Below are positions 1,339-3,627 of a stretch of DNA of 64,000 nucleotides, piece after piece (within the stretch, counting starts at the first letter, position 1; every line of letters starts with the position of its first letter). The notes under the pieces are model-generated. The model did no database searches and was not told where the DNA came from. It was given only the letters and a program-made list of their open reading frames with translations. The stretch comes from a virus, in IMG/VR virus record IMGVR_UViG_3300004280_000281, positions 1 through 64,000 of that record, one strand, 5' to 3'. The position numbers and the translations under genes are program-made.

Positions 1339-1929
1339 ATGGGTCTAGAATTTAGAAACATAGATCAGTTCGAGGCTTTTGTATCCTCTAAGATAAAAAA
1401 ATTGTCCAAAAAGATAGTAAAAAACGCAGAGAAAGACTTCAGGAAGAAGATAGACGAGCTAAATAACTCGTTCTTAAACCTCAAGGACTTTAAAGATATA
1501 AAGACAAGACTTGTAGGAGAGTATGGATTCACAGAAGGTGAGGTCCAGGCGCTAGACAACATAGTTAACGCTATGTCGAGAGTTAGCAGATACTCCTCTT
1601 CAGACACAGGATTTGTAGTAGAGTATGTCTCTCTTGCAGAACTACACGAGCAACCAGAAGCTAGACACACGCTCACGAACGCAAAGAATGGTGGAGAGAC
1701 AATATCATGGACCAGATGGCTAGAAGACGGAGCCTCTGTCCTTGGGTACACGTTCTCTGCCAAAGACTCTAAGAACTCAAGATCAGGAAAAGGCGTAATG
1801 AGCGAAGGAGGAGCTTGGAGACTGAGGCCGACAAGGGCATTCTCCAACCTGAGAAAACAGCTTAAGTTAGAAGACGTTAAAAAGATCCTTTCGATCTCAA
1901 TAAAGAAGATTGCGAAAAGTGGCCTGTAA
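1339..1929 (+). CDS. Virion-associated protein, neck/tail-completion type
   Basis: A 196-residue protein. The N-terminal ~60 residues are Lys-rich and helical. The C-terminal half has a pattern I associate with phage head-tail connection proteins: TISWTRWLEDG, then SRSGKGVM and GGAWRLRPTRAF, resembling the SRSG...M...WRvPp block of myovirus and podovirus structural proteins. The stop overlaps the next start (TAATG at 1927-1931), suggesting translational coupling. It sits two genes upstream of the chaperone-like pair and tape measure, where neck and tail terminators normally lie. The family match is by eye only. Confidence 0.5.
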   Translation: MGLEFRNIDQFEAFVSSKIKKLSKKIVKNAEKDFRKKIDELNNSFLNLKDFKDIKTRLVGEYGFTEGEVQALDNIVNAMSRVSRYSSSDTGFVVEYVSLAELHEQPEARHTLTNAKNGGETISWTRWLEDGASVLGYTFSAKDSKNSRSGKGVMSEGGAWRLRPTRAFSNLRKQLKLEDVKKILSISIKKIAKSGL

Positions 1930-2939
1930 TGGACATCGAGAAGACAGTAAATAAGATACTATGGGGCAGATGCCTAGTGAAGGCACATGGCATAGATGGA
2001 GTTTCTAAGACTTTCACTCTTAGGTCTCTGACTATACGAGAACAGAATGAACTTGACTTTCTTAAAGAAACGATCCTACAGGAGTGCGAGGAAGACGGAA
2101 TACTGAATCGCAAAGACTTAATGAAGATAATGTCTGAAACAGAAGCGTGGACAGACAGCGACGACAGTGAGATAGAGAGACTAGAACGTGAAGTTAGAAA
2201 GCTGAATCACGGAATAGTACAGGCGGAGTACCATGTCACAAGGAAAAAGATGCTTGAGAAGAATCTTAAAAAGACACAATTCAAGCTTCAGGAGCTAAAC
2301 AGTCAGAGGACAGATTTGCTTGGAAGCACTGCAGAGGCTAGATCAGAAGAGGTTGTAAGAAGATACATGATATTCATGTCAGCGACAGACAAGTTCGGCA
2401 AGCAGATATGGGATACAGAAGAGGCATTCCTTGCGTCAACAGACTCTGTGCTAGTAGACATGCTGACAATAAGATATCTTCAGAATCATATAATGCTGGA
2501 GAAAGAAGTAAGAGAGATAGCCAGAAGCGGACTGTGGAGATTTAGATGGTCAGCATCTAAAAACGGAGAGAGTTTGTTCGGTGGCCCGATCTCAGAGTGG
2601 AGCGAGCTACAGAGCGCCCTCGTATACTGGAGTCAGTTTTACGACTACGTATATGAGAGCATGGACAGGCCTAGCGATATGGTGATAGAAAATGATGCAG
2701 CACTAGATGCATGGGTCTCAGACCAAAACAAAGGCTCGTCATCGAACAAGTCCAGAAAGCCGGTTAATGACTCTCACCAAGAGCAGTTTATCGTTGTTCC
2801 AGACGCAGACAAGAGTACAATAGACAAAGTATACGACATGAATGACAAGAAGAATAAAGATCTGATCAGAAGAGAAAGAGAACAGATCAAGGAAAAAGGT
2901 AGTGTCTCTGAATGGGACCTAAGAAAAAAAGGCCAGTAG
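1929..2939 (+). CDS. Tail-assembly-chaperone-like protein (paralogue 1)
   Basis: A 336-residue protein. Residues ~40-180 hold a helical region (LQECEEDGILNRKDLMKIM, AWTDSDDSEIERLEREV, then TDLLGSTAEARSEE). The same order of motifs occurs in the next gene, so the two are paralogues. The C-terminal part contains GLWRFRWSASKNGESLFGG and VYESMDRPSDMVIENDAAL, a pattern seen in large-phage proteins just upstream of tape measures. The tail is Lys/Glu-rich. The position just before the tape measure is the classic site of tail assembly chaperones, which normally come as a frameshifted pair. Here there are two separate genes instead. The role is inferred from position and pairing. Confidence 0.5.
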   Translation: MDIEKTVNKILWGRCLVKAHGIDGVSKTFTLRSLTIREQNELDFLKETILQECEEDGILNRKDLMKIMSETEAWTDSDDSEIERLEREVRKLNHGIVQAEYHVTRKKMLEKNLKKTQFKLQELNSQRTDLLGSTAEARSEEVVRRYMIFMSATDKFGKQIWDTEEAFLASTDSVLVDMLTIRYLQNHIMLEKEVREIARSGLWRFRWSASKNGESLFGGPISEWSELQSALVYWSQFYDYVYESMDRPSDMVIENDAALDAWVSDQNKGSSSNKSRKPVNDSHQEQFIVVPDADKSTIDKVYDMNDKKNKDLIRREREQIKEKGSVSEWDLRKKGQ

Positions 2940-2955
2940 GCCAGAAAGGTTGACT

Positions 2956-3627
2956 ATGAAGATTACAATCGAGGGAACCAAAACAGAGGCGAAATTCGCA
3001 GAGCCGAATCAGTCACAGATCTTTGAGCTAGACAAGTTCTACAGGAAGATCTTTTCAGAGTGCATCCGAGAAGGAATCATGACCGAAGCTGAGGCCAAAA
3101 AAAGGTTTAATGAGAGCGGAGCGTGGACAAAAGACGAAGAGGGCTCCATGGCCACACTCATGCAAAAGATTGCATTTAATGGTGCTAAATTAGATGTTCT
3201 CACCGAGATTGATGATGAGGCAACCGCCATCATAGAACTAATTCAAGAAGACAGATCAACACTATTTGAGCTAATCGGAAGAAAGACAGAGCTTCTTTCA
3301 AACACAGCAGAGGGAATGGCAAACGAGCAAAAGGTGTTTAAGTACATCTCATTATGTCTATGTGGAGAAGATGGATCGATACTATTCCCAGGACATGGAG
3401 AGCTTGAGAAGTACGCTACTGAAAACAGAGAAGACTTTTCAGATATCGTGCAAGACGCCTATGCTCTCATCTACAATTTCGACAATGACAAGGATCTAAC
3501 TGAGGATTGGGCAGAAGTCAAGTTCTTAGCTGACATTTCAAAAAAAGCAGACAAAGAGAAGACAGCTAAGTCTAAAAAAAGCAAAAAGACTACAAAGAAG
3601 AATACAAAAAAGAAGAGCACTAAGTAG
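2956..3627 (+). CDS. Tail-assembly-chaperone-like protein (paralogue 2)
   Basis: A 223-residue protein when started at ATG 2956, which has an AGAAAGG ribosome-binding site 6 bases upstream; an in-frame TTG at 2950 would overlap that site. Blocks in the same order as the preceding protein include SECIREGIMTEAEAKKRF, ESGAWTKDEEGSM, TELLSNTAEGMANEQ and a Gly/Ile patch before LEKYATEN. It lacks the WRFRW...RPSDMVIEND C-terminal domain and ends in a Lys-rich tail (KKSKKTTKKNTKKKSTK). It lies 26 bases before the tape measure start. I infer a chaperone partner for the tape measure. Confidence 0.5.
   Translation: MKITIEGTKTEAKFAEPNQSQIFELDKFYRKIFSECIREGIMTEAEAKKRFNESGAWTKDEEGSMATLMQKIAFNGAKLDVLTEIDDEATAIIELIQEDRSTLFELIGRKTELLSNTAEGMANEQKVFKYISLCLCGEDGSILFPGHGELEKYATENREDFSDIVQDAYALIYNFDNDKDLTEDWAEVKFLADISKKADKEKTAKSKKSKKTTKKNTKKKSTK

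Follow-up and report, generated by a model that had tools for sequence, protein, structure and literature searches.

Candidate long and short tail assembly chaperones encoded by two paralogous genes before the tape measure gene of a virus

In phage lambda the tape measure protein is bound by gpG and by the G portion of gpGT, and the tube protein by T, at a ratio of about 30:1; the G/GT frameshift is described as widely conserved in long-tailed phages, and the ratio as crucial for tail assembly (review, PMC5009743). The genes for lambda G/GT, like those for HK97 gp13/gp14, lie directly before the tape measure gene, the short form is the N-terminal part of the long form, and both systems use a -1 frameshift. 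Such a programmed frameshift is usual for these chaperones and is not required, as some T4-like phages are without it. Vladimirov, Gautam and Davidson (2022, Virology 566:9-15) reportedly described a frameshift-free chaperone pair in T4-like phages, and their study is also cited for frameshift signals in other T4-like phages; in T4 the pair presumably corresponds to gene numbers 26 and 51. PMC10885494, citing Vladimirov et al. 2022, states that in some T4-like phages one short and one long gene replace the frameshift. In some Microbacterium cluster EA phages two chaperone ORFs are described with no evident frameshift (PMC7302621), in a passage that does not state paralogy of the two ORFs.

A comparison of the T4 gp26 and gp51 families, which served as a positive control, gave E 2.8e-18 with hhalign (six sequences each), and pairwise BLASTP values fell below 1e-4 in five of six phages, indicating that gp26 and gp51 are paralogous. 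The idea of a pair arising by duplication is already in print for T4-like phages and is not new here. Within the literature searched, no published duplicated, frameshift-free pair was found in the lineage described below.

The locus considered here belongs to IMG/VR virus record IMGVR_UViG_3300004280_000281. The stretch analyzed, called the window, comprises 64,000 nucleotides and makes up most of this 67,196-base record; its left end coincides with the end of the record and holds a tail gene block. Two genes of this block, P1 and P2 (Table 1), are proposed, with a probability of about 77%, to have arisen by an ancient duplication and to encode, each from its own translation start, the long and short (TAC-NC and TAC-N) tail assembly chaperones of the virus. 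Like the lambda and HK97 genes, P1 and P2 precede the tape measure gene directly, and the short form corresponds to the N-part of the long form. They differ in being two genes with separate starts, in the coiled coil inserted into their N-domain, and in the small gene that separates them in five of six genomes. The pair resembles T4 gp26/gp51 in that a short and a long form come from two separate paralogous genes. The T4 arrangement differs, however: genes 26 and 51 are divergent and lie beside genes 25 and 27, and the tape measure gene, 29, does not follow directly.

Table 1. Coordinates and make-up of P1, P2 and neighboring features in the window
Feature	Coordinates	Strand	Size or extent	Remark
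Small gene	1119..1334	+	71 aa	5' of both P1 and P2 in the window
Gene adjoining P1	1339..1929	+		Homologue of a neck-block gene of five other genomes
P1	1929..2939	+	ATG start, 336 aa	Proposed long tail assembly chaperone (TAC-NC)
P1 domains			N-domain with coiled-coil insert, ~1-190; C-domain, ~191-336	
P1-only C-domain core	2499..2714	+	P1 residues 191-262	
A7 run	2924..2930	+		In P1 frame, just 5' of the P1 stop
P2	2956..3627	+	ATG start, 223 aa	Proposed short tail assembly chaperone (TAC-N)
P2 make-up				N-domain only, plus lysine-rich tail
Tape measure gene	3654..8654	+	1666 aa	Expected client of the chaperones

The tail gene block and its relatives

In the window, the P1 start codon overlaps by a single base the stop codon of the gene that precedes it. 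P2 has a start of its own, an ATG preceded by AGAAAGG; the first possible start is a TTG six bases 5' of this ATG. Directly after P2 comes the tape measure gene, whose protein matches PhageMin_Tail (PF10145) with E 2.6e-26.

A tblastn search of 50,697 phage records with P1 and P2 queries from the window and L026 returned none, a P1 profile found none in genome contigs, and scanning viral contigs with one protein at a time (P1, P2 or the tape measure protein) was equally negative. G003, an 89 kb contig with both P1 and P2, was reached through the polymerase gene. It is the only one of the five polymerase-reached records with a P1 or P2 match, a count in which G001, the same virus as the window, ends at window position 7076 and the tail regions of G002, G004 and G005 are not mapped. 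Profile scans of viral contigs with P1 added L020, L023, L024, L025 and L026. A scan with the C-domain returned six contigs, all of which carry P2 too, and a scan with the P2 profile returned the same six and no others. P1 and P2 therefore co-occur in everything these profile scans of viral contigs returned, with no contig holding only one of them; a relative with one gene alone may be missed, because the scans use few short peptide patterns (two to six, and two for the P2 profile). To the eye L024 is almost identical to L025, so the two count as one, which gives five genomes other than the window and a set of six in all (the window, G003, L020, L023, L025 and L026).

Gene order around the pair is conserved. 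In all five other genomes it runs neck block, putative tube gene, P1, small gene, P2, tape measure gene, with two further, structural-type genes between the putative tube gene and P1 in G003. The tape measure gene is directly 3' of the pair in six of six genomes, the neck block lies 5' of it in the five others, and a major capsid gene is found 5' of the pair in G003 (Phage_capsid_4) and L023. The preliminary description had placed the pair directly before the tape measure gene, and this position is borne out in all five other genomes, where the homologues do not lie among the head genes. Of the genes between the putative tube gene and the tape measure gene, only three are common to all five: P1, the small gene and P2. 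ORF lists covering 60 or 70 aa and up add only the two G003 genes and, in L025, one 64-aa ORF that overlaps the end of the tube gene.

The small gene is present in all six genomes. In five it sits between P1 and P2, and in the window it sits upstream of P1, so that P1 and P2 are adjacent only there. It shows no similarity to P1, P2 or HK97 gp13 (E 0.10-0.37) and is possibly part of the same module as the pair. In the five other genomes the homologue of the 1339-1929 gene belongs to the neck block, ahead of the putative tube gene. The tail operon of the window (1119-1929) is rearranged relative to L019, L020, L023, L025 and L026. A separate observation concerns L020, where the gene at 1143-2873 (+ strand), a homologue of G003 9273-9800, carries a long insert that by eye resembles an intein containing a homing endonuclease; behind the insert it matches G003 at 54%, and the portion ahead of the insert was matched by eye only.

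The gene in tube position is conserved in all five other genomes (414-423 aa), and in four of them its protein is 52-62% identical to that of G003. One of the five copies, in L023, matches Phage_tube_2 with 20.4 bits and E 4.4e-4, below the cut-off of 27, and a search of PDB sequences with a profile of this gene found no solved tube. The tube label is drawn from position and this one sub-threshold family match, and the gene is accordingly called putative. At E 1e-3 the window yields no match to the capsid, protease, neck and putative tube proteins of G003; because no tube gene was found there, the slot is seen in the window on its tape measure side only.

Paralogy and domain architecture of P1 and P2

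P1 and P2 share 28% identity over 112 aa in a BLASTP comparison (E 1e-5). When profiles built from six orthologues of each were aligned with hhalign, the match reached a probability of 98.3% and E 2.6e-14 over 150 columns (P1 18-167), with a score of 100.7 against 18.7 for the reversed profile and 20.3 for the best of 100 column shuffles. The preliminary description had suggested that the two genes are paralogous, to be checked by profile alignment, and the alignment proved significant. The similarity falls on both sides of the coil: the pre-coil segments (P1 1-78 and P2 1-62) match at E 1.6e-11 and the post-coil segments (P1 127-200 and P2 109-180) at E 3.2e-5, while the coil segments compared alone give nothing (E 0.35). 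Because the flanking segments match and the coil does not, the relationship is not a coiled-coil artefact. Sequence comparison thus identifies P1 and P2 as paralogues over about 150 residues, the coiled coil not included.

P1 190-336 is without a counterpart in P2 (E 0.28). The N-domain is common to both proteins and an additional C-domain is present in P1 only, an arrangement that agrees with the origin of a short/long pair by duplication put forward earlier. The C-domain may have been lost from P2 or gained by P1. In a maximum-likelihood tree of the twelve N-domains, the six P1 are split from the six P2 with 100/100 support; one duplication older than all six lineages therefore suffices, and the tree places the P1/P2 split before all of them. 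Among the six P1 proteins, the core of the C-domain has a mean pairwise identity of 64.7%, the highest of nine P1/P2 segments, compared with 41.1% for P1 1-78 and 26.5% for the coil. Such conservation is as would be expected of a surface that fits a conserved partner.

Frame relations and translation starts

Both other frames were followed past the P1 stop in all six genomes, and the frame of the next gene was found at +1 in three, at -1 in two and at neither in one. In the window it is P2 that the +1 frame enters; the small gene is entered by the +1 frame in G003 and L026, by the -1 frame in L020 and L023, and by neither in L025. A slippery-type heptamer occurs in the last 60 nt of P1 in one of the six genomes, the window, where it reads A AAA AAA in frame. 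No conserved recoding signal follows P1 across the six genomes compared, and the changing frame relations therefore look like ordinary gene overlaps and not like a kept recoding site. A hidden -1 frameshift into a longer product was considered for the window and rejected, as the -1 frame closes four codons past P1.

As P1 and P2 would each be translated from a separate start, the proposed pair needs no programmed frameshift. In five of the six genomes P2 has stronger computed Shine-Dalgarno pairing than P1; the difference is small in the window (-2.3 for P1 vs -3.6 for P2) and reversed in L023 (-7.6 vs -6.5), the P1 starts in L020 and L023 being taken as the first possible TTG and the P2 start in L023 as TTG. 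Stronger pairing at P2 would fit an excess of the short form, a weak hint.

Fold comparisons, proposed roles and alternative readings

AlphaFold2 models of P1 and P2 were built from six-row alignments. The best P1 model has a mean pLDDT of 78.2 (77.6, 56.5, 54.4 and 53.8 for the other four), and P2 reaches 87.0. In both models a beta hairpin close to the N-terminus (preceded by a short helix in P1) is followed by a helix, then by the helical hairpin that makes up the coil, and finally by one more helix. The best of 864 chains aligned to P1 by VIA-align was 2ob9_A, the HK97 tail assembly chaperone (gp13), with Z 10.2, rmsd 5.1 and 102 of 107 residues aligned across model residues 1-188; the other 49 matches listed all lay within residues 57-140. 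As the arrangement of helices can by itself lift Z to 13 in helical proteins, and 2ob9 was absent from the first 50 Foldseek matches of P1, this match by itself is not proof. Foldseek found nothing significant for P1 in the PDB, the best match being a 14-3-3 protein (E 0.11). The modeled P1 N-domain is accordingly regarded as a moderate fold match to gp13. For P2, VIA-align gave no phage-tail chaperone among the 50 matches listed, which were mostly helical hairpins. In BFVD, the first match of P1 was a tail assembly chaperone, not significant at E 0.047, and 4 of the 50 matches listed were chaperones; P2 gave nothing significant there, its best match being an uncharacterized protein of Myoviridae sp. 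ctDvB7 (E 2.1e-3, probability 0.99).

At the level of sequence profiles, P2 126-169 matched the HK97 gp13 family profile (five members) with E 0.0044 and a score of 24.2, at a probability of only 7.8%; none of 400 column shuffles reached this score. P1 scored at chance against the same profile, its score being reached by 19 of 100 shuffles. HK97 gp13 is in this way both the top VIA-align match of the P1 N-domain and a weak profile match of P2. No curated chaperone family was matched in PHROGs or Pfam by six P1 and six P2 proteins, or in NCBIfam by three of each; the best family matches, of unknown or unrelated function, were sub-threshold (PHROG E ~0.001 for P1 and 0.004 for P2), and profile searches of PDB sequences found nothing relevant. 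A curated match is usual for chaperones and not defining, since the families diverge strongly. P1 and P2 define a protein family that is not named in the annotation libraries searched.

Position, architecture and the moderate fold match together point to a chaperone function. By analogy with lambda gpG and gpGT, the tape measure protein would be coated by abundant P2 and a small number of P1 molecules, each binding through the shared N-domain, the P1-only C-domain would recruit the tail tube protein, and the P1/P2 ratio would be set by translation initiation; the same analogy would supply the binding partners, an excess of P2 over P1 and the absence of both proteins from the virion.

It is unlikely, though a more serious contender than the readings discussed below, that the paralogous pair has another role in the tail operon, as baseplate or tail-tip assembly factors or minor structural proteins, with the true chaperone encoded elsewhere. 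The absence of a named chaperone family match and the moderate strength of the structural support speak for such a role; T4 gp26 and gp51 are themselves annotated as baseplate hub proteins, and the small gene, also conserved, is without an assigned function. Against this, no genes of the slot other than P1, the small gene and P2 are shared by all five genomes, and the top VIA-align match of P1 is a tail assembly chaperone. No better chaperone candidate is seen, because the slot adds only the two further G003 genes and the 64-aa L025 ORF.

Slippage of ribosomes or RNA polymerases on the A7 run, which would yield a P1-P2 fusion in the +1 frame as a third product, is improbable. The P2 frame is open from 2923 across the end of P1 in the window, and the heptamer lies in the P1 frame. 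The -1 frame, however, ends after four codons, P2 has its own start behind AGAAAGG, and in the five other genomes the small gene separates P1 from P2, the last 60 nt of P1 contain no heptamer, and the frame relations change; such a fusion is possible in the window genome and not in the other five. That the two proteins resemble each other by convergence, through coiled coils and composition, and not by homology is hardly credible: long helical hairpins are present in both models, but the coil segments fail to match where the pre-coil segments do, and neither column shuffles nor reversal reproduces the score. Two paralogous genes encoding a long and a short chaperone therefore remain the preferred reading.

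When six-member profiles were compared by hhalign, P1 and P2 showed no similarity to T4 gp26 or gp51 (best E 0.17). T4-like phages possess a contractile sheath. None of the seven records here, all possibly fragments, gave a match to the sheath family PF04984, which was detected in 3 of 14 control genomes. P1/P2 are probably a second case of a frameshift replaced by duplication, separate from that of T4, although the two pairs may be of common descent with total loss of sequence similarity. The chances are about even that this replacement took place independently two or more times, once in the T4 line (gp26/gp51) and once in the P1/P2 lineage, and that the pair and the small protein form a three-gene module with stoichiometry set by initiation and not by recoding. 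If the preferred reading holds, the frameshift can give way to two separate genes in phages other than the T4 line as well. Each form, short or long, could then be removed, titrated or exchanged independently of the other.

Several other features of the window genome deserve mention. A PurZ-like gene at 56118-57401 on the minus strand (phrog_1211, 2-aminoadenylosuccinate synthetase type, E 1.6e-97) suggests 2-aminoadenine (Z) DNA, and the same genome encodes a DnaE-like polymerase at 38534-41968 (phrog_405, E 2.2e-247). Genes at 29658-32463 on the minus strand appear, by eye from their translations, to be phosphoglycerate-mutase-like, NeuB-like and cytidylyltransferase-like; with a nearby glycosyltransferase gene at 35191-37290 (phrog_2170, E 3.2e-19) they possibly form a surface-sugar cassette. 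An HNH endonuclease gene lies at 23248-24045 on the minus strand (phrog_99, E 2.6e-10), its start overlapping the end of a 542-residue gene at 23936-25564 on the same strand.
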